This document shows positions 6,406 to 14,847 of a stretch of DNA of 16,228 bases, in pieces. How positions within the stretch are numbered: position 1 is the first letter of the stretch; each line of letters starts with the position of its first letter. A model generated the notes under the pieces. It was not told the DNA's origin and searched no databases. It saw only the letters and a list, made by a program, of their open reading frames with translations. The stretch comes from an uncultured Actinomycetes bacterium (GTDB lineage: Bacteria; Actinomycetota; Thermoleophilia; Solirubrobacterales; Thermoleophilaceae), in contig CAMLNW010000029.1 in assembly GCA_946481495.1 (NCBI GenBank), forward strand, positions 1 to 16,228. The letters run 5' to 3'. Position numbers and translations under genes: made by a program.

Positions 6406-8031
6406 TCAAGCAGCGAGGTCGGTCTCCGCTGCGCGCCAGTGCGGATGAAACCGTACGACTGCTGGCGGCCGTGACCCCGACACGACCAGGCCACGTCCCC
6501 AGGTGAGTTGCTGGAGGTCTTGGGCGGTCGCCTTCGGTGCCAAGGTGGCGTGATCGTCAACGTCGACCTCGTGCTGGCCGAGTAGATCGACAACCTCGTC
6601 GCGGGTGCTCTTGTCGGTGATCGGGCCAAGGAACACCTTGTCGGTCGATGCTCCCATGATCGCGTCTTTGGCGTCCCCGTAGCGGTCGCGTAGCTGCGCG
6701 ATCGACTGCCACACCGTTGCGATCCGAACGCCGTACGCGGCAACGTCGGATAGATGGCCTGGCAGCGTTTGAAGCGGCGCGCAGTTTGCCGTCTCGTCGA
6801 GCAGTACCCGCAGTAGCGGGTCTAGTGGCGAGCCCACCGAGCGGGACTTCTCGATCGCCGCATCAAGGACTGACGACACCAGCGCGACGAGGATGGGCGC
6901 GAGCATCTTCTGATGCCGTGATGACGAGGTGAGGTACAGCGTTCCCGCGCCTCCGTCGAGCAAGTGACCGGCCGCAAACCCCGTCGTTGCCGTCTCCAGC
7001 ACCTCCGGGAATCGGTACGCCTGTAATAGGTGGGCGGCTGACATGTACGTTGTGCCCGCGTTGCGCGGATCTAGGGCGAGAACCCCCTCAAGCTGACTCT
7101 GCGCGGCCCCGTCGCCGTCGGAGTTGAGAATCTCCATCGGCGCCGAGCGATCCTCTGTCTCGAGCCACTTGACGACCTGTCCGATCGGCCGTTCGCCGCC
7201 GGCGAGCGCAGCCGCGTGGAGGAGCGGCGCGAGCAGCTTCGCCGACTCGCCGCTCCAGAACTGCTCGACGTGGCTACCCTCGCCCGGCTTGGTAGCGGAG
7301 TCGGCGAGCCAATGCGCTTGCCGTAGCGCTCGGCCCCAGTCCTCGCAGCCCTCCAACGGGTTCCAGTTGCAGCTGTCCGCTGAGAACGGGTCGTAGACCC
7401 ACACCTGTCCGCCTTGTGCTCGGCGGCGCTCGGTCGCTCTCCAGACGTCGTGCTTGGTCGAGGTCACGACTGCTGGCCCGTCGTGCTCGAGGAGCCACGG
7501 GATAATGAATCCGGTCGTTTTGCCAGCTCGCGGCGGGGCGCAGAGCAGCGTGTGCGCCTCGGGATCGCCGGCCAGCAGCCGTCGGTCGAGCGTGCCGAGC
7601 GTCATCCGCGTGCCTGACGGCTCTCGAACGATCAGCGACTTGACGTCACGCGGCCTCGCCCACTCACGCGGACGCGTACCGCGGAAGTCATAGCCCCGAC
7701 GTCCGAACTTCCGCTGTGCGATGAGAACGTCGAGCGGCCGAGCGGCGAACGCCGCTATGCCCGCCAAGACACACGCGGGAGCGAACAGGAGCGCCCACCA
7801 CATCGCGCCGTCTGGCATCTGCTCGCGCGCGCGGGGCGGATAGCCGGCGGTCGGGTCGCTGAGGTTCAGCTTCCCGGCGAACGCTCCGGTGCCGATCATC
7901 GCCTCGGCCAATGAGAGCCGCGCGATCTCTTGCCGGTAGATCGCCGTTACGACGAACGGCGGTCCTGCGAGCACCGCCATCAAGCACACCACTACGAACA
8001 GCGCGCCTACTGGCTGTCGTCCACTTTGCAT
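6406..8031 (-). CDS. type IV secretion coupling protein, VirD4/TraG/TraD-like ATPase
   Basis: 541 aa. Two N-terminal membrane segments (about 9-31 and 78-98) flank an extracytoplasmic loop, then a cytoplasmic ATPase domain carries Walker A APPRAGKTTG (165-174) and Walker B VLLDETANCAP (409-419). The stretch WQSIAQLRDRYG (441-452) is typical of the coupling-protein motor. These hexameric ATPases bring the relaxase-DNA complex or effector proteins to a type IV secretion channel at the inner membrane. A Shine-Dalgarno AAGGGA sits 6 nt before the ATG (8038-8043). No relaxase or other secretion gene is in the window, so whether this belongs to an integrative conjugative element or to a resident secretion system cannot be decided. 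It is divergent from the sigma-fusion operon. Confidence 0.9.
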   Translation of the reverse strand: MQSGRQPVGALFVVVCLMAVLAGPPFVVTAIYRQEIARLSLAEAMIGTGAFAGKLNLSDPTAGYPPRAREQMPDGAMWWALLFAPACVLAGIAAFAARPLDVLIAQRKFGRRGYDFRGTRPREWARPRDVKSLIVREPSGTRMTLGTLDRRLLAGDPEAHTLLCAPPRAGKTTGFIIPWLLEHDGPAVVTSTKHDVWRATERRRAQGGQVWVYDPFSADSCNWNPLEGCEDWGRALRQAHWLADSATKPGEGSHVEQFWSGESAKLLAPLLHAAALAGGERPIGQVVKWLETEDRSAPMEILNSDGDGAAQSQLEGVLALDPRNAGTTYMSAAHLLQAYRFPEVLETATTGFAAGHLLDGGAGTLYLTSSSRHQKMLAPILVALVSSVLDAAIEKSRSVGSPLDPLLRVLLDETANCAPLQTLPGHLSDVAAYGVRIATVWQSIAQLRDRYGDAKDAIMGASTDKVFLGPITDKSTRDEVVDLLGQHEVDVDDHATLAPKATAQDLQQLTWGRGLVVSGSRPPAVVRFHPHWRAAETDLAA

Positions 8032-8108
8032 CCGTCATCCCTTCAGTCGAGGTCATTGACGGGCGAAGACGCGACCCCCTCAAGCGAGTGGCAAGACGAC
8101 GGTTCGAT

Positions 8109-8136
8109 TTGACGTAGCGAGAAGTAGGCGTACGTT
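8109..8136 (+). promoter_or_regulatory. promoter of the sigma-fusion operon
   Basis: TTGACG (8109-8114) and TACGTT (8131-8136) with 16 bp between them, a good match to actinobacterial housekeeping promoters. Transcription would begin near 8143, giving a leader of about 180 nt before the ATG at 8322. It is the best promoter candidate in the 290-bp divergent gap 8032-8321. Confidence 0.5.
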
Positions 8137-8142
8137 CTTAGT

Positions 8143-8321
8143 AGGCCGTTTGGCGCTTCAGCGCAGACCACGGCGGGAGACAGATGCGCCAAGCGAGGGG
8201 AGAGGACCCAGCAGAACCAGCCACCCGGCCCGCCCGATGGGCGGGCCGCGCCGCGCTGGCCTGGCCGTTCTCAAACGGCGATGCGAAAACTTCGAGGGGG
8301 TCGCGTCTACGTCGAAGACGC
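8143..8321 (+). promoter_or_regulatory. structured leader with several hairpins ahead of the sigma-fusion gene
   Basis: Between the predicted transcription start and the ATG lie three perfect inverted repeats: a 9-bp stem GGCCCGCCC/GGGCGGGCC with a 3-nt loop (8227-8247), a 6-bp stem GCCGTT/AACGGC with a 4-nt loop (8264-8279), and a 6-bp stem GCGTCT/AGACGC ending directly at the ATG (8303-8321). A GAGGGGG at 8294-8300 is the only Shine-Dalgarno-like site, and the third hairpin lies between it and the start codon. The region stays open in the sigma frame from 8184, but the encoded 46 residues are Arg/Ala-rich and unlike sigma factors. It matches no riboswitch class I know. Confidence 0.45.
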
Positions 8322-9635
8322 ATGTCCCTCATCACCGACATAGACACCCGCCGCAGCGAGCAAGACCGCCAAGCCCGCCGCCAGCTCGAGGACGAATACC
8401 GCGAGCACGCCGCCACCGTCGACCGCTACCTCGCCGGCACCTTCGGCACCGCCCTCGACGCCGACGAGCGCGAGGCACTCCGCCAGCAGGCGTTCGTCGG
8501 CCTCGCCGACGAGATCGCCAAGGGCACCGAGATCCGCAACACCGAGGCCATGCTCATCACCTGCGCGCGCAACGCCGCCTACAGCCACCTGCGCTCGGCC
8601 GACCGCCGCCGCCGCTACACCTTCGACCCCCAAGACTCGCCCGAGGCTCGACGGCCCGACCCCACGACTGCCGCAGTCGACGTCGCGGTCGTCGACGCCG
8701 ACGAGGACCGCCGCGTGAAGATGCTCGTCGACCAGCTCGACCCGCGATCCCGCATGGTGCTCCAGCTACGCCTTGAGTTCGCGATGGAGATGCCCGAGAT
8801 CGCCGACCGCCTCGGCGTCAGCACCAGCCACGCCTACAAGCTGCTCAAGGGAGCCGGCGCCGCCCTCTCTGACGCGATTGCCGCGAACAACGCCGGAGCG
8901 CACTCACGCCAGCAACGCGCCCTGCTCACCGCCTACGAGCTGGGCACCGCCACCGACCAACGCGACCAGGCCGAGCGGATGCTCCACGCCGACACCCACG
9001 CCCGCGTCCTGCTCGCCGAGATCCGCGGCCTCAGCCACCAGGCCGCCGCGCTCATGCCGCCCGTTGCCATCGCCGGAGCCGCGCCGCCCTCATCGGGACG
9101 GATCAGCCACATGCTCTCCAGCATCAAGCAGCAGGTCTCCGATCTCGTCGGTCGCGGCGGGTCCGCACAGGAGGCAGCGACACAGGTCGCCGCTGGCGGC
9201 GGCCTGCGCGGCGGCGGCGCAGTCAGTCAAGCCGTCGTGGCCGGCGTCCTCGCGTGCATGGGCGCCGGCGGCTATGCCGCCACGGTCTGTGTCACCCAGG
9301 GGCCGGCGGCTCTCGTCGACAAGCTCCCAGGCACCGACGACTCCAATGCCGAGCCTCAGCAGCCCAAGGTCGTCGAGGCTCCCGTCGCGCCGGTCGTCGA
9401 GCCGTTGACGACGGTGCCCGAGCAGCCCGTCGCGCGGGGCCAGGCCGATCCAGCGCCCGACGCACAGGCCGCCAACGAGCCAACCCCGGCGCCGGCAACA
9501 GCCAGCGACGCCGTTAGCGGACTCGGTGGCGATCCCACAGCAACCGCGACCCCAGCACCGCCGCCACCGCCCGCCGCTTCAGGCGGCGGGGGCGGGGGCG
9601 GCGGGTCGTCGGGCTCGACGTTCGGAGGGCTCTAG
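8322..9635 (+). CDS. sigma-70 family (ECF-like) factor fused to anti-sigma-like, membrane and Pro/Gly-rich segments
   Basis: 437 aa from ATG 8322. Residues about 25-100 fit sigma region 2 (a helical segment ending NAAYSHLRSADRRRRY); about 130-185 fit region 4, with QLDPRSRMVLQLR and the helix-turn-helix MPEIADRLGVSTSHAYKLL. Residues about 198-245 (AYELGTATDQ, then AERMLHADTHARVLLAEIRG) resemble the N-terminal domain of RskA-type anti-sigma factors, without zinc ligands. A Gly-rich linker leads to a probable membrane helix (about 300-325, with two Cys), then a Pro/Ala-rich stretch, a run of eight Gly and the tail SSGSTFGGL. Sigma factor and its own restraint on one membrane-bound chain suggests release by proteolysis or direct membrane tethering; that is inference. 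It heads an operon with two surface proteins. Confidence 0.8.
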   Translation: MSLITDIDTRRSEQDRQARRQLEDEYREHAATVDRYLAGTFGTALDADEREALRQQAFVGLADEIAKGTEIRNTEAMLITCARNAAYSHLRSADRRRRYTFDPQDSPEARRPDPTTAAVDVAVVDADEDRRVKMLVDQLDPRSRMVLQLRLEFAMEMPEIADRLGVSTSHAYKLLKGAGAALSDAIAANNAGAHSRQQRALLTAYELGTATDQRDQAERMLHADTHARVLLAEIRGLSHQAAALMPPVAIAGAAPPSSGRISHMLSSIKQQVSDLVGRGGSAQEAATQVAAGGGLRGGGAVSQAVVAGVLACMGAGGYAATVCVTQGPAALVDKLPGTDDSNAEPQQPKVVEAPVAPVVEPLTTVPEQPVARGQADPAPDAQAANEPTPAPATASDAVSGLGGDPTATATPAPPPPPAASGGGGGGGGSSGSTFGGL

Positions 9636-9673
9636 CGATGCCGACCCCAAGCACCACCAGGAGGAACCTGCCC

Positions 9674-11863
9674 ATGCCAGCCCGCGCGCTCATCGCCGCG
9701 ACCGTCGTCATCGCCGCTCTTGTGACCCCGCAGGTCGCCGCTGCCGGCACCTACGCCGTCTCGTCCTGCGACGCCGCCGGGCCGACGCACAACGTCAACG
9801 CATGGTGGGTTCAGGGCGGCAGCGTCAACAGCTACGCGCTCTGCCCGAGCGCGCAAGGCAGCGGCATCAACACGCGCGGCATGTCGACACGCGCGACCGG
9901 CCGCACGTTCAACGGCGGCGAGTTCTCCCGATGGTGGTTCACCGCGCCCGGTGGCACCCACATCACCCGGCTCGATTGGTCAGGACGTCTCGCTCGCGAC
10001 ACACCCTCATGGGCCACTGAGATCAGCGCCCAAGGCGGCGTCTCGAACACGCGACTCATCGGATACCCAGCTCAGCCCGGAGCGGCGGGATGGACCAGCG
10101 GCTCCGAGTGGCCCAACCCGGTCCCGCTATGGACACCCGCCGGCACGACCAGCCTCACCCAGAACGTCCAGTGCGGCGCAGGGAGCTGCGGTAGCGGAGC
10201 GACGATGCACACCTACTCGGCCGTCGTTCACCTCAACGACTTCTCCGGTCCCAGCGTGTCGATGGGCGGCATCGAGAACAACGATTGGGTTCGGTCCAAC
10301 CGGACAGTCAGCTTCTCGGCGAGTGACAACATCGGGATCAAGGCCGTTCAGCTCTACGTAGACGGCGGACTCGTTGACGCCATCAACTACGGCTGCGACT
10401 ACACCATTCCCACGCCTTGTAGCAACAGGTCGGGCGGCTTCGATCTCGGGACGACCAACCTCGCGAGCGGCACCCACCGCGTTGATGTGGTGGCGATCGA
10501 CGGTTCTGACACCACGATCTCCACGGCGCGTACGATCCGTGTCGACAACGTGCCACCTGCCCAAGTCGCCCCCAGCGTCGTCAGCGGCGACGGATGGCGC
10601 AAAGCCAACGGCTTCACCGTGGCATGGCCTTCGGTGGCAGATGGCGGCTCGCCGATCATCGGCGGCTCCTGGCAGCTCTGCCGCCCCGGTCGAACCGCGT
10701 GCAGCGACGCCTACCCGATCAACCAGGCCGATCCCACCGCCACGCCGAAGATCGACCTGCCTGCCGACGGTGCCTACGAGCTGCGGGCGGTCGTGCGGGA
10801 CGAGGCCGGCAACGTTGCGAACATCGTTGACGCGCGGCCTGCCCAGCTGCGTCTGGATCGCGCCGCACCTGCACTCACGATCGACGCGCACGATCCCAAC
10901 GAGCCCGTCCAGGCGTCGGCGGCGATCAACGATCTGTTATCGGGTCTCGCGGGCGGCCAGCTCGAGATCCGGCGTGTTGGCACGAACACCTGGCGCGAGC
11001 TCGCCACGACCGTCGAAGGTCAGCGGCTCGTTGCGCAGATCGACGACGAGCGGTTCGCCGACGGCAGCTACGAGCTGCGCGCGCAGGCCGACGACCGCGC
11101 GGGCAACCACGCCTCGACCGGCCTCGAGGCGAACCAGGCGCGAGCGCTGCGCCAGTTCCCTGTGCGAATCAAGACGCAGCTGCGCGCGGGGCGGGAGCAC
11201 GTCACAACGGTCAGGCGCAAGGTCGGACTCGGCAAGCGTAAGCGGCTTGTGAAGCGGCGCGTCGTCCGCTTCCGATCGAGCTTCTCAGTCGCTCGCGGCC
11301 ACCGCGCCGACGTCGAAGGCGTCCTCACCAACCCCGACGGCCAGCCGCTTGACGATGTCCCGATCCAGGTTCTCGCGCGTCCTGAGCTGCCCGGCGCGGG
11401 CTTCGCCGCGACGGGCATCGTCAGGACCGATCGCGACGGCCGATTCAACTACAAGGTGCGCGGCACCATCAGCCGCACGATCCAGTTCCGCTACGGCGGC
11501 GCAACGCGCATCCGGCCATCGACTACGGAGGTCAAGGTCGCCGTCCCGGCATCCAGCACCTTCACACTCAACCCGTCGCGCATCCTCAACGGCGAGACGG
11601 TCACGTTCAAGGGCCGAGTGCGAGGCGGGCCGATCCCGCCCAATGGCAAGCTAATCGAGCTTCGCAAGTGGACCGGCAGACAGTGGGCGCCGTTCCGACT
11701 CGTCCGAACCGACGCATCCGGCCGCTGGCAGCACACTGAGCCAGTGGTTAGCGTCCGCGGCCTGGTCATCTTCAAGCTGCGGGCCAGCATCCCCTCCGAG
11801 GCCGGCTTCCCATTCGCGGCCGGTCGCACGGTCGCTCGCAAGCTGCGCGTCCAAGGACTGTGA
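9674..11863 (+). CDS. secreted multi-domain Ig-like protein
   Basis: 729 aa. The start at 9674 is set by a perfect AGGAGG (9659-9664) 9 nt upstream; an earlier in-frame ATG at 9638 lacks such a site. A signal peptide (1-24, cut after VAAA) is followed by an N-terminal beta-rich domain rich in Trp/Gly (25-188), an Ig-like domain with the pattern SASDNIGIKAVQLYVDG and two Cys (189-293), a second with a FTVAWPS strand and a GTYELR-like end (about 298-398), and a third (about 400-485). A very basic segment (514-534) precedes a carboxypeptidase-regulatory-like domain (about 538-625) and a last beta domain. No sortase signal or C-terminal helix is seen, so it is secreted or held by partners. It follows the sigma fusion by 38 nt, so it is probably co-transcribed. 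Confidence 0.8.
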   Translation: MPARALIAATVVIAALVTPQVAAAGTYAVSSCDAAGPTHNVNAWWVQGGSVNSYALCPSAQGSGINTRGMSTRATGRTFNGGEFSRWWFTAPGGTHITRLDWSGRLARDTPSWATEISAQGGVSNTRLIGYPAQPGAAGWTSGSEWPNPVPLWTPAGTTSLTQNVQCGAGSCGSGATMHTYSAVVHLNDFSGPSVSMGGIENNDWVRSNRTVSFSASDNIGIKAVQLYVDGGLVDAINYGCDYTIPTPCSNRSGGFDLGTTNLASGTHRVDVVAIDGSDTTISTARTIRVDNVPPAQVAPSVVSGDGWRKANGFTVAWPSVADGGSPIIGGSWQLCRPGRTACSDAYPINQADPTATPKIDLPADGAYELRAVVRDEAGNVANIVDARPAQLRLDRAAPALTIDAHDPNEPVQASAAINDLLSGLAGGQLEIRRVGTNTWRELATTVEGQRLVAQIDDERFADGSYELRAQADDRAGNHASTGLEANQARALRQFPVRIKTQLRAGREHVTTVRRKVGLGKRKRLVKRRVVRFRSSFSVARGHRADVEGVLTNPDGQPLDDVPIQVLARPELPGAGFAATGIVRTDRDGRFNYKVRGTISRTIQFRYGGATRIRPSTTEVKVAVPASSTFTLNPSRILNGETVTFKGRVRGGPIPPNGKLIELRKWTGRQWAPFRLVRTDASGRWQHTEPVVSVRGLVIFKLRASIPSEAGFPFAAGRTVARKLRVQGL

Positions 11864-11923
11864 TCCGCCACAATCGGCCCAGGCCGACCAACCAGTGAAC
11901 CTGTCCGCCGGAGGGACCGCCAC

Positions 11924-12580
11924 ATGCGCAAGCTGATCCGCCGCCCAAGCCCCGCAATGATCGTCTCGCTGATCGCTCTGTTCGTCGCGCTCGGCGGCAC
12001 CGGCTACGCCGTAACCGCCCTGCCCAAGAACAGCGTGGGCGAGAAGCAGGTCCGCAAGGCGGCCGTCACCTCGCCGAAGATTCGTGACGGTGCTGTCCGT
12101 TCCCGCGACATCGCCGACAGCACGATCATCGGTCGCGACGTTCGAGCGGGCACGCTCGGAGGTCGCGAGATCGACGAGTCCAAACTCGCAACAGTGCCCC
12201 GAGCCAGTGCTGCCGACGCCCTCGGCGGACTCACCGCCGATCAGCTCAAGGACCACTGTCCAGCCGGCACGATCGCATCCGGCGATGCGTGCTTCGAGGC
12301 CACAGTCCGGCCAGCACAGAGCTATGGCATCGCCAACGCCATGTGCAAGGTCGCCGGTCGCCGGCTTGCCACCTACGCCGAGCTGGTCAACTTCCTTGAT
12401 CCCCAACAGCCAATAGCGCCCGGTGGCGAGATCACCGCCGACGTCAGCGAGTCCAGCACCACAGCAGGCCAACTGGTGGCCGTCGTCCTTTTGGACAACA
12501 CCGGGTCGACCTTCGAGTTCATTGACGCGACCGGCAACGTCCAGCGACAGTTCCGCTGTGCCGCTACTCCAAGGAACTAG
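11924..12580 (+). CDS. membrane-anchored stalk protein with C-terminal Cys-containing (lectin-like?) domain
   Basis: 218 aa with a strong GGAGGG (11910-11915) 8 nt before the ATG. An N-terminal helix (about 12-30, IVSLIALFVALGGTGYAV) acts as an uncleaved anchor or signal. Residues 31-90 have a hydrophobic residue at every fifth position (see the repeat entry), forming a stalk. The C-terminal domain holds four Cys (C112, C123, C141, C212) around AGRRLATYAEL, a pattern recalling C-type-lectin-like or related domains seen in Thermoleophilia; that domain name is tentative. The anchor-plus-stalk type is common in Solirubrobacterales. It lies 60 nt after the Ig-like gene on the same strand, closing a three-gene run. 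Probably displayed on the cell surface; ligand unknown. Confidence 0.75.
   Translation: MRKLIRRPSPAMIVSLIALFVALGGTGYAVTALPKNSVGEKQVRKAAVTSPKIRDGAVRSRDIADSTIIGRDVRAGTLGGREIDESKLATVPRASAADALGGLTADQLKDHCPAGTIASGDACFEATVRPAQSYGIANAMCKVAGRRLATYAELVNFLDPQQPIAPGGEITADVSESSTTAGQLVAVVLLDNTGSTFEFIDATGNVQRQFRCAATPRN
12014..12193 (+). repeat. protein-level repeat of period five in the stalk protein
   Basis: In residues 31-90 a V, I or L recurs every five residues without a break: L33, V38, V43, V48, I53, V58, I63, I68, V73, L78, I83, L88. From about residue 41, alternate units begin with a basic residue or Pro and with Ala, Gly or Ser, so the true unit may be ten residues. It resembles pentapeptide-repeat beta-helices but is not canonical. 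Confidence 0.75.
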
Positions 12581-12640
12581 CGGCGCCTGTCGGCCGGTAC
12601 TAGACATCGCGGCTTCTACGCACTCAGTATGGGCACCGGC

Positions 12641-12646
12641 TAGGTT
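12641..12646 (+). promoter_or_regulatory. candidate -10 for a leaderless Schlafen-domain gene
   Basis: TAGGTT ends 6 nt before the ATG at 12653. No Shine-Dalgarno site precedes the ATG, so a leaderless transcript is likely. No convincing -35 is seen. Confidence 0.35.
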
Positions 12647-12652
12647 CCAGCA

Positions 12653-13930
12653 ATGGCACTCGGCTCTTTCGCGCATGGAGCGCTCGTAGACCTCTCACCC
12701 GACGATCTCAGCCGGATGCTGGAGCTCGACGAGACCCTGTTCGTGGAGCACAAGAGCGACCTCGGGCGTGACAGCGCATACGGCCTAGCCAGCTCAGTTG
12801 CGTCGTTCGCCAACACTCTTGGTGGTTGGGTACTAGTGGGGGTGAAGAACGGCGCCCCCACCAACAGCGAATCCGCGTGGGCCGATCCCGACCATGATCT
12901 GACACTGGTAGACGCCGTTCGTGACCGCCTACGCGACCAGATAGATCCATTGCCAGCCTTCGAGGCCAAGGTGCTTTCGCATCCCGATGGTCCGATCGGA
13001 GTGATTCGCGTCTACGAGTCCTCCGACACGCCTCACGTCGTTCTTCAGTCTGGAGCTGTCTTCGTTCGCGAGGTCGCAGGCGTCACCGATGCTGGCAACC
13101 CTGCGCGGCCTGGAGCAGGCTCACGCGGCGAGCGCGCCTACCGGGCGGCCCAGATCCGCAGCCGCGCCCAACTAGTTGAGCTGGCGCTGCGCGGAGAGGC
13201 AGCCCGGGAACGCGCCACCAGCCTGGTCGATCCGAGGAGGCCGCTCCCCCTGATGCTGGATGGGTTAGGACTCGCGATCGGCGCTGACGGCCTCCGGCTT
13301 CCCGGCGATGGCTGTGCCTCTATCGTCGTTCGTTTGGCGCCATACACGCTGTCACCTCGATTTCGGCAGTGGGCAACAACACCAGATGCGGCGACAGCCG
13401 TTCTCAGAGCTGGCGAGGCTCTTTCACATCGAGCCGGATTGTCCAGCGGGTGGCTTGACCCGCATCCCGCAGGCGTCGCAGTCAGCGTTGGGCTCGATCG
13501 AGGCCGAGCGCATCGTGATGACGTGGAAGGAGGTCTCGATGCGACAGCTCGGATCGCGCTTGACGGCGCCGGAGCAGTAGGCGCAGCGCTAGAGCTAGCT
13601 GGACCCGACGAAGGTCGCCGACGATCGCGGGTAGAGCTCTACGATCTGGCGGACAATCTGATTCGTCCCGTGCTTGACGCGGCAACAGGCGTTCTCGCTG
13701 CGGGAGAGTTCATCGGTCGCGCGTGGTGTCAGGTAGACATCGTTGCGTTGCCCGTCGCTCTCTTGCTCGAGGGGCAGGGGGACCAGGAGGCAAGACCCTG
13801 GGTACCAACCGGCGCCGAGCTTGCCCTTCCCGTCGAAGACGAGCAAGCGACACGGCTGGTCCGTCACTCGGCAAATGCCTACGCGCGAAGCGCGCGGTTG
13901 CCCGCCTGGGATTCGCCCGCCCGTTCTTAG
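12653..13930 (+). CDS. Schlafen/AlbA_2-domain protein, putative DNA- or RNA-binding
   Basis: 425 aa. Residues about 20-145 form an AlbA_2 (Schlafen-type) domain: LFVEHKSDL (29-37) with the conserved E32 and K34, SFANTLGGWVLVGVKNG (51-67), and a closing VFVREV strand (136-141). In bacteria these domains occur in transcription regulators and predicted nucleic-acid-binding proteins; in animal SLFN proteins a related fold cleaves tRNA. The remaining 280 residues match nothing I can name and contain no visible AAA or helix-turn-helix motif. Third codon positions are less GC-biased than in the core-like genes, suggesting acquisition. It lies 72 bp after the stalk protein but has its own candidate promoter. 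A defence role is possible but unproven. Confidence 0.75.
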   Translation: MALGSFAHGALVDLSPDDLSRMLELDETLFVEHKSDLGRDSAYGLASSVASFANTLGGWVLVGVKNGAPTNSESAWADPDHDLTLVDAVRDRLRDQIDPLPAFEAKVLSHPDGPIGVIRVYESSDTPHVVLQSGAVFVREVAGVTDAGNPARPGAGSRGERAYRAAQIRSRAQLVELALRGEAARERATSLVDPRRPLPLMLDGLGLAIGADGLRLPGDGCASIVVRLAPYTLSPRFRQWATTPDAATAVLRAGEALSHRAGLSSGWLDPHPAGVAVSVGLDRGRAHRDDVEGGLDATARIALDGAGAVGAALELAGPDEGRRRSRVELYDLADNLIRPVLDAATGVLAAGEFIGRAWCQVDIVALPVALLLEGQGDQEARPWVPTGAELALPVEDEQATRLVRHSANAYARSARLPAWDSPARS

Positions 13931-13972: not shown

Positions 13973-14006
13973 GGTAGACGGTTAAGTCTACCGTGCATGG
14001 TAGAGT
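13973..14006 (+). promoter_or_regulatory. compound operator and -10 box of the PadR gene
   Basis: Three half-sites alternate in orientation: GGTAGA (13973-13978), TCTACC (13987-13992) and GGTAGA (13999-14004). The first two form the perfect GGTAGAC-N6-GTCTACC, and the last two TCTACC-N6-GGTAGA. A TAGAGT (14001-14006) overlapping the third half-site ends 8 nt before the ATG at 14015 and is a good -10 for a leaderless transcript. A repressor bound here would block the promoter, so autoregulation by the PadR product is the natural reading. Confidence 0.6.
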
Positions 14007-14014
14007 TAGTGTGG

Positions 14015-14356
14015 ATGGCTCGTAAACCCCGACGAATCAGTGATGAGACGGCCACGGTTCTCCGACTGTTTCTCGACGAACCGACGACGGAGCGCTTCGG
14101 GCGGGAGATCATCAAGAACACTGGTCTGAAGTCGGGGTCCCTCTACCCGATCTTGAGCCGGCTGCAGGACCTGGGCCTTCTCACCTCGACTTGGGAGGAA
14201 GAGGATGCCGCTGCGGCTGCGCAGCGGAGACCAAGACGGCTCTACAGGCTAGATCCAACCAACGCCCAGCAGGCGGAGACGGCGTTCGACGAGTGGCAAC
14301 AGGCTAAGCGTGTCAATCGCGTCATTCGTTCTGATCTGAAGGGTGTAGTGGGATGA
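14015..14356 (+). CDS. PadR-family transcriptional regulator
   Basis: 113 aa from ATG 14015; an ATG at 13997 would add six residues but lies inside the operator and upstream of the -10 box. The family signature is plain: REIIKNTGLKSGSLYPILS (the recognition part of the winged helix), RLQDLGLLTSTWEE and the wing strand RPRRLYRLD. The short C-terminal helix is the dimerisation arm, making this a small (subfamily-2-like) PadR. Its stop overlaps the ATG of the next gene by 4 bases (ATGA), so regulator and membrane protein are coupled, a standard arrangement in which PadR controls its own operon. Effector unknown. The three half-sites directly upstream fit dimer binding. Confidence 0.88.
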   Translation: MARKPRRISDETATVLRLFLDEPTTERFGREIIKNTGLKSGSLYPILSRLQDLGLLTSTWEEEDAAAAAQRRPRRLYRLDPTNAQQAETAFDEWQQAKRVNRVIRSDLKGVVG

Positions 14357-14847
14357 ACAGCGTTTCAGCTCTGTTAGTCGTGGGAGGCATGTCTCTGCTC
14401 TGGGCTGTTGCCGGCGTGATCCGCGAGATCCGGGCCAAGCTAGCCCGACGAGCAGCGGACTGGCTGATTCCAGACGGGCAAGCGTGGACGGTGCGCATAG
14501 CCTTCGCCTTAGCGATTGTCGCCCGATGGGTGCAACCGCAGACGGAGATGTACTTCGAGGCCCGAATCGCTCGTGTCCAATGGCGACCTGCGTTCTGGAC
14601 CGGACCCGACGAGGCACTAGCCGAGTTGGCAGCGGACCTCCGTGCCGAGGAACGTGTAGTGGATCCGGTCAGATTGATTCTGCCGGTTGTGCGCATGGCA
14701 GTAAGGGCACGATTGCTGTGGGCTCTCCCCATGCTTGCCGCTACAGCTTTTCTCTGGGCTTGCATGCCCATTCTCCGGAGTGTCGAGTTCTACCGGTGGA
14801 TGCGCCGACTCGGGTCTAAGCCGGAACGGCCTACTGACGCCGACTAG
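14353..14847 (+). CDS. membrane protein of unknown function, coupled to PadR
   Basis: 164 aa with two clear membrane helices, about 5-23 (ALLVVGGMSLLWAVAGVI) and 120-141 (LLWALPMLAATAFLWACM), and a less certain amphipathic segment at 46-60. The middle (about 62-118) is charged and probably cytoplasmic or peripheral. I recognise no family. The 4-base overlap with padR makes it a partner gene under the same operator; PadR-linked membrane proteins are often transporters or stress-related, but nothing here shows transport function. The C-terminus is short and charged. Confidence 0.7.
   Translation: MNSVSALLVVGGMSLLWAVAGVIREIRAKLARRAADWLIPDGQAWTVRIAFALAIVARWVQPQTEMYFEARIARVQWRPAFWTGPDEALAELAADLRAEERVVDPVRLILPVVRMAVRARLLWALPMLAATAFLWACMPILRSVEFYRWMRRLGSKPERPTDAD

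Follow-up and report, generated by a model that had tools for sequence, protein, structure and literature searches.

P0001, a protein encoded in the analysed DNA, carries on one chain ECF-type sigma2 and sigma4 domains, a three-helix segment, a helix of low confidence, a hydrophobic run with two cysteines and a Pro/Gly-rich tail, in this order (Table 1). We consider it rather probable that this protein is a self-restrained, membrane-tethered ECF factor, which would be released by proteolysis on a surface signal. Inhibition, topology, cleavage, signal and targets are what we infer beyond the computed domain order. The window, by which we mean the whole stretch of DNA that was analysed, comprises 16,228 nucleotides. 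P0001 is the window protein, P0002–P0016 are its 15 close relatives, and P0001–P0016 together are referred to as the window clade.

Table 1 Features of the P0001 gene and its downstream neighbour (positions are those of the window).
Feature	Position	Strand	Basis
Fused sigma / anti-sigma-like / membrane / tail protein P0001	8322..9635, stop included	+	Open ORF, 437 aa
Sigma2 domain, about residues 10–98	8349..8615	+	Pfam region 2 (sub-threshold); NCBIfam sigma70-ECF; fold matches
Sigma4 domain, about residues 117–190	8670..8891	+	
Zinc-less anti-sigma-like three-helix segment (putative), residues 193–245	8898..9056	+	AlphaFold helices; alignment with zinc-bearing relatives; profile comparisons, one negative
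Further helix, residues 260–290, candidate anti-sigma helix 4	9099..9191	+	Low-confidence AlphaFold; aligned KQ-containing region in relatives
Hydrophobic run, residues 304–325, with Cys312 and Cys323, candidate transmembrane segment	9231..9296	+	Hydropathy, composition
Pro/Gly-rich tail, 112 aa, presumed outside the membrane	9297..9632	+	Block pLDDT mostly below 50
Conserved C-terminal tip FGGL	9621..9632	+	End residues of the family compared
Ig-like (Big_7, Big_13) protein gene, signal-peptide-like start by eye	9674..11863	+	38 bp downstream of the P0001 gene

The mechanical open reading frame begins at 8184. For P0001, we favour the ATG at 8322 because nine of the 15 close relatives (P0002–P0008, P0010 and P0011) begin at the matching MS and because GC3, at 0.92 for the sigma part, is lower in 8184–8321 (0.65). 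Among the other close relatives, the annotated start lies upstream of the MS in P0009, P0012 and P0016 and downstream of it in P0013–P0015; the long start was not preferred, although P0009 and P0012 are annotated in this way. The in-frame stretch 5' of the ATG has a similar peptide, beginning MRQ, in these two proteins, and by eye we noted inverted repeats at about 8226–8248 and directly before the ATG. It is possibly a conserved leader or promoter, and translation is also conceivable.

The layout of P0001 is more than chance, because the same order of sigma part, hydrophobic two-Cys run and Pro-rich tail recurs in about 90 proteins at identities down to about 19–25%; these relatives rule out a chance low-complexity open reading frame. 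A comparison with the plasmid collection gave no match to P0001 at E 1e-5, which speaks against plasmid cargo, and other mobile elements are still conceivable. The preliminary description of this DNA had arrived at the same order of parts, and its placement of the hydrophobic stretch, the two Cys, the Gly-rich linker and the low-complexity tail is borne out. It had also read sigma region 2 and 4 segments in the N-terminal part, and this reading holds: Pfam sigma-70 region 4 (26.8 bits, cut-off 24.1) and the NCBIfam sigma70-ECF model over residues 43–182 (50.4 bits, cut-off 42.9) score above their cut-offs, with region 2 below its own (18.2 bits, cut-off 24). Both domains are confident in the AlphaFold model, and the matches listed in a fold search with P0001 are sigma chains, with an effective coverage of residues 2–192. 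P0001 thus contains sigma2 and sigma4 and no sigma3, the composition that defines ECF factors.

Behind the sigma domains, AlphaFold places helices at residues 193–207, 214–223 and 225–244, with a block pLDDT of 86–95 for residues 191–240 and of 76 for 241–250. A continuation of region 4 through 193–245 is not favoured, since the last sigma4 helix closes at residue 190 and separate helices begin from 193; the outcome that the preliminary description had set against its own reading, namely that residues 198–245 merely prolong region 4, did not occur. The zinc-bearing relative P0054 has the same order of helices (194–201, 207–219, 221–240 and 254–282). In the alignment with nearby zinc-bearing relatives, the C-H-C-C ligand columns of zinc anti-sigma domains are occupied by S195, M220, D224 and A227 in P0001, which agrees with the anti-sigma-like segment without Cys/His ligands proposed earlier, and the ZAS ligands (C and HxxxCxxC) are absent. 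Because the segment aligns with the zinc-finger anti-sigma domains of relatives, residues 193–245 most likely represent an anti-sigma domain that lacks zinc and is joined to its own sigma factor. Loss of zinc would not be strange in itself, because zinc-less and zinc-bearing class I domains are mixed across the tree according to the available part of the study describing them (PMC7406223). The AlphaFold helix at 260–290 of P0001 is of low confidence. Over this candidate helix 4, residues 264–289 (9111–9188) gave a match of 16.7 bits to NCBIfam permease prefix domain 1, under its cut-off of 30.

Of the profile families considered in the preliminary description, those of sigma factors were recovered and zf-HC2 was not: Pfam at E up to 1 over the 437 aa of P0001 returned sigma and HTH families only. 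Among ten zinc-bearing relatives scanned with zf-HC2, P0019 alone passes (27.2 bits, cut-off 22.2) and P0068 comes nearest among the other nine (20.2), and a scan of the 18 rows of alignment A3 gave four matches at E up to 1, the best of which (E 0.0098) lies under the cut-off. Using hhalign, nine window-clade rows together with P0037 compared with the zinc-bearing P0038, P0039 and P0044 gave a probability of 90.8% (E 1.2e-6), a figure without a shuffle control; the window clade against zinc-less intermediates gave 91.4%, and 97.1% resulted when the membrane part was also taken in and the window set was compared with the larger zinc set. The window-clade segment alone against the larger zinc-bearing set yielded 4.4% at a score of 16.2, inside 100 column-shuffled controls (mean 9.9, maximum 17.3), and this segment-only comparison rises to 59.3% once P0037 is added. 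BLAST aligned residues 26–246 of P0001 with 12–234 of P0039 (E 8e-13), a match that spans sigma and anti-sigma parts and to whose score the sigma part may contribute much. A PDB profile search with the zinc-domain profile found ChrR at E 0.59 only, behind an unrelated zinc finger at 0.067, and the fold search with P0054 listed sigma chains as well as LuxR-type and other helix-turn-helix regulators. Step by step, profile comparison supports a putative homology of residues 193–245 to the zinc-bearing anti-sigma domains.

The general design of sigma and anti-sigma factor on one chain is already known. In the available text of two studies, ECF48, ECF52 and ECF53 carry both parts on one chain and release by proteolysis is proposed, with cleavage of SCO4117 (ECF52, Streptomyces coelicolor) suggested and unproven in the cited work (PMC8999054, PMC5826349). 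For IutY (ECF243) of Pseudomonas putida, the portion available describes sigma and anti-sigma factor on one polypeptide and release of the sigma factor by Prc and RseP (PMC5411451). Because these proteins already join the two functions, the design of P0001 is not new in kind. As far as the partial descriptions go, P0001 shares with the actinobacterial ECF48, ECF52 and ECF53 the joining of an ECF sigma factor to an anti-sigma-type domain and one or more membrane segments in a single chain, the domain here being putative and the segment probable by hydropathy, and with ECF52 also a Pro-rich extension (18% Pro in the low-complexity tail of P0001). Unlike ECF52 in the same descriptions, P0001 has neither a zinc finger (no zf-HC2 at E up to 1; ligands replaced) nor a C-terminal carbohydrate-binding domain (Pfam, E up to 1; low-complexity tail). 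Compared by description only, the traits on the side of P0001 relative to ECF48, ECF52 and ECF53 are the two-Cys segment, the conserved tip, the linked Ig-like gene and a module that also occurs on sigma factors without an anti-sigma domain.

P0001 resembles IutY in uniting sigma and anti-sigma factor on one polypeptide and differs in that IutY, according to the parts available, is part of a system for iron (aerobactin) that includes an outer membrane receptor, and its anti-sigma domain is periplasmic (PMC8999054, PMC5411451). A Pfam scan of the eight window proteins returned no protease, no FecR match in P0001 and no receptor gene; the FecR-like domain with an outer membrane receptor gene that marks the IutY type is thus missing among them. 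The anti-sigma domain of IutY is of the FecR type and presumably has no relation to the three-helix segment of P0001. In its predicted arrangement, this segment would resemble the class I factors RskA and RseA (zinc-less) and ChrR and RsiW (zinc motif), in which, in the excerpt available, a three-helix bundle is followed by a fourth helix (PMC7406223), the fourth helix of P0001 being of low confidence. Unlike P0001, those factors are separate proteins, and sequence similarity to them is not significant in the PDB search with the zinc-domain profile. Extra C-terminal domains on ECF factors are also found in ECF41, ECF42 and ECF56; the ECF56 extension is described as SnoaL-type in the text at hand. 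The ECF41 extension is SnoaL-type as well, and we know of no membrane segment or outside tail in ECF41, ECF42 or ECF56. Among open-licence papers, we found none on ECF sigma/anti-sigma pairs of Solirubrobacter; for Thermoleophilia, the sigma/anti-sigma literature found includes PMC8325347, whose accessible part deals with RsiG. None of the open-licence texts examined brings together a fused domain without zinc, a two-Cys segment, a conserved tip, an exchangeable module and a linked Ig-like gene.

In the resting state of the proposed mechanism, the anti-sigma helices at 193–245 would hold the sigma domains, with 260–290 as the likely sigma2-binding helix, and the hydrophobic segment would anchor the protein in the cytoplasmic membrane. 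The Pro-rich tail would cross the cell wall and present the tip FGGL. Changed binding at the tip or tail, or a changed state of the wall or surface, could then open the tail to a protease, and trimming followed by intramembrane cleavage would set the sigma part free. The freed sigma part might activate its targets, probably including the downstream surface-protein gene. Of the self-restrained, tethered sigma factor put forward in the preliminary description, it is the parts that stood, as judged from sequence: one chain joins sigma domains, a zinc-less anti-sigma-like domain, what is probably a membrane segment, and a tail.

Stretched out, a chain of 112 residues would roughly match the thickness of a Gram-positive wall. 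At the end of the tail, GL forms the last two residues in 16/16 proteins of the window clade, in which the last three residues are nearly fixed and a glycine run deeper in the tail is likewise well conserved. Across 93 proteins, the commonest four-residue ends are FGGP (33), EFGP (11), LYGP (10), FGGL (9) and DFGP (8). In a gap-free reading of the full set from the right end, a way of counting that favours the very end, the last two positions are the most informative of those printed (3.15 and 3.54 bits; next 2.74). Because the C-terminal letters are nearly fixed behind a variable Pro-rich tether, the comparison suggests that the conserved tip is recognised by some partner.

The mechanical open reading frame of the neighbouring Ig-like gene runs from 9638, and P0095, identical over the aligned part, begins at ATG 9674; 39 homologues of the protein were found. 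Nine of the 15 close relatives P0002–P0016 share an equal-sized longest contig with an Ig-like homologue record, and the six without such a match lie on contigs of 2.7–8.6 kb. As a control, 0/75 relatives from the second search and none of the other four from the first search match. Judged by these equal-sized longest contigs, the Ig-like gene seems to travel with the sigma gene as a conserved pair, and its product is probably secreted in view of the signal-peptide-like start. The "one-protein" surface-sensing system of the preliminary description is therefore doubtful, because this probably secreted neighbour appears linked in relatives.

In 9/9 linked pairs, sigma tail and surface protein both end in -GL. 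This common ending is suggestive and may be chance: of the 39 surface-protein hits, 20 end in GL, 3 in GP and 16 otherwise, and the distant homologues P0122–P0124 end in -GP, as does most of the wider sigma set. The tip could be a dock for a C-terminal-recognising (PDZ or tail-specific) protease for which exposed C-termini of surface proteins compete, so that unassembled surface protein would be reported, a possibility that we regard as unlikely. DegS reports outer membrane proteins in a comparable manner; to our knowledge, Gly-Pro ends are no PDZ consensus. The paired endings, including the -GP of P0122–P0124, would fit such a dock, as would the fact that the final two to three residues rank with the best conserved positions in a tail that otherwise varies. 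So would the trimming of the periplasmic part of IutY by Prc before the RseP cut, in the available account (PMC5411451). Against it, the ending of only two residues may be coincidental, and the eight window proteins include no such protease by Pfam.

Other parts of the window were inspected as well. A promoter and terminator scan of 8000–12700 gave 0 and 2 sites against shuffle means of 0.3 and 2.1, hence no promoter above chance. The third gene in the same direction, 11924–12580 (+), encodes an N-terminal membrane or signal segment by eye, with a sub-threshold C-type-lectin-like match (PF05473, E 0.0046). It is followed by a Schlafen AlbA_2 protein (12653–13930, +), a PadR-like regulator (13997–14356, +) and a small protein with hydrophobic stretches and no Pfam match (14353–14847, +). 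Divergently, 6406–8031 (−) encodes a TraG/VirD4-like coupling ATPase (T4SS-DNA_transf) whose plasmid matches are all under 60% identity, and no conjugation genes besides it were found among the eight window proteins scanned.

The first protein search yielded 19 relatives and the second, started from the distant relative P0018 (residues 120–330), 75 including P0018, which is in both lists. Each search scored only the roughly 8,000 candidates sharing most words, and more members may exist; P0090 carries the name of a dehydrogenase and was excluded as unrelated. The phylogenetic tree comprises 88 of the 94 proteins P0001–P0094 (all except P0032, P0056, P0065, P0075, P0087 and P0090), with HxxxCxxC present in 46 and absent in 42. 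Zinc presence calls for three changes on this tree, two of them being forced by well-supported branches (bootstrap range 2–3); the number of losses is unsure, because the count takes in seven domain-less proteins and several joins with long branches.

P0083–P0086, P0089, P0091 and P0092 form one clade without HxxxCxxC. In the four whose sequences were read (P0083, P0086, P0089 and P0091), the anti-sigma domain is absent and the membrane/tail module is kept; P0084, P0085 and P0092 probably also have no anti-sigma domain, judging by similar length and place in the tree. Between P0083 and P0055, the membrane/tail module is 71% identical (E 3e-97) and the sigma parts have no significant similarity (E 0.79). 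Compared with P0054, sigma parts are weakly similar (P0083, E 5e-5; P0089, E 2e-5), and the sigma heads of P0083, P0086, P0089 and P0091 are nearer to that of P0001 (E 1e-7 to 1e-10). The head of the anti-sigma-less relatives, four of which were compared, appears to be a different one, at most distantly similar. The simplest reading would be that the membrane/tail module moved between sigma heads, the alternative being loss of the anti-sigma domain together with fast change of the sigma head. Records named by organism (P0054 and P0089 of the sigma family, P0112 and P0128 of the Ig-like homologues) are from Solirubrobacterales. Scans of genome contigs with P0001 and alignment A2 gave 43 and 185 pattern stretches, and scans of viral contigs with alignments A4 and A2 gave 17 and 54, none of them confirmed.

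Taken further, the module of helix, two-Cys segment, roughly 110-residue wall-spanning Pro-rich tether and FGG(L/P) might define a lineage-specific "tail-tip" sensor family, exchanged between sigma heads and reporting the state of the adjacently encoded surface protein by exposing a tip that resembles the C-terminal end of that protein and vies with it for a shared receptor or protease; we hold this to be an unlikely, speculative extension.

The hydrophobic run at residues 304–325 extends over 22 residues and contains none of D, E, K, R, N, Q, H or P. The segment is Gly/Ala-rich, its Kyte-Doolittle value of 1.73 over 19 residues lies at the margin for a membrane helix, and AlphaFold models the helix at this place with low confidence and with breaks at glycines. 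For the family, the longest run of this composition after residue 200 that was more than half hydrophobic and did not consist of a Gly/Ser repeat was counted in the 90 proteins with 300 residues or more (P0090 and three that fell short of this length were dropped). Its median length is 22, compared with a median of 9 and a maximum of 16 for the longest run of any kind in the first 190 residues; P0065 has a run of 3 residues only. K/R are more frequent in the 25 residues preceding the run than in those following it in 61/90 proteins and less frequent in 17, and acidic residues average 1.1 before and 4.6 after the run, a charge bias that fits an inside N-terminus. Based on hydropathy, the uncharged run and this bias, 304–325 is a probable membrane segment, and the corresponding proposal of the preliminary description fares favourably in spite of the marginal hydropathy.

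If counting begins 15 residues ahead of the run and continues to the C-terminal end, 88/90 proteins have exactly two Cys (exceptions: P0065 with none and P0067 with five), the first two of which are spaced by 11 in 64 proteins and by 9–17 overall. The pair may serve in a disulfide, in redox sensing or in helix pairing. Such constancy would suit a sigma factor that stays tethered and uncut, in which a tail ligand or Cys redox shifts the anti-sigma helices and the sigma part works at the membrane, or in which the state of the membrane itself is sensed. Tethering itself may be the control, because seven relatives keep the membrane/tail module without an anti-sigma domain. We nevertheless judge control without cleavage unlikely: a membrane-held sigma factor would presumably reach the chromosome poorly, and the fused precedents act by proteolysis, shown for IutY and proposed for ECF48, ECF52 and ECF53 in the portions of their descriptions cited above. 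It is quite improbable that the run crosses no membrane and forms a buried or disulfide-closed loop of a cytoplasmic sigma factor with a disordered tail, as the marginal hydropathy, the broken helix and the nearly constant company of the two Cys would allow, given the conserved long uncharged run, the charge asymmetry and the Pro-rich tail with acidic residues behind it.

For the proteolytically released, membrane-tethered factor that we prefer, the new elements are the conserved tail tip and the surface-protein neighbour, added to a known one-chain design. If this is true, an actinobacterial lineage would possess a family of switches that connect surface and genes through a single chain, with sigma heads, brakes and sensor tails that can be exchanged for one another. 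The natural series of zinc brake, zinc-less brake and no brake would allow one to ask what the anti-sigma domain and the membrane tether each contribute, and the chain would show how sigma factors can be placed under membrane control in a compact form. In that case, the variable tail with its nearly fixed tip would point to a receptor or protease that is open to direct search.
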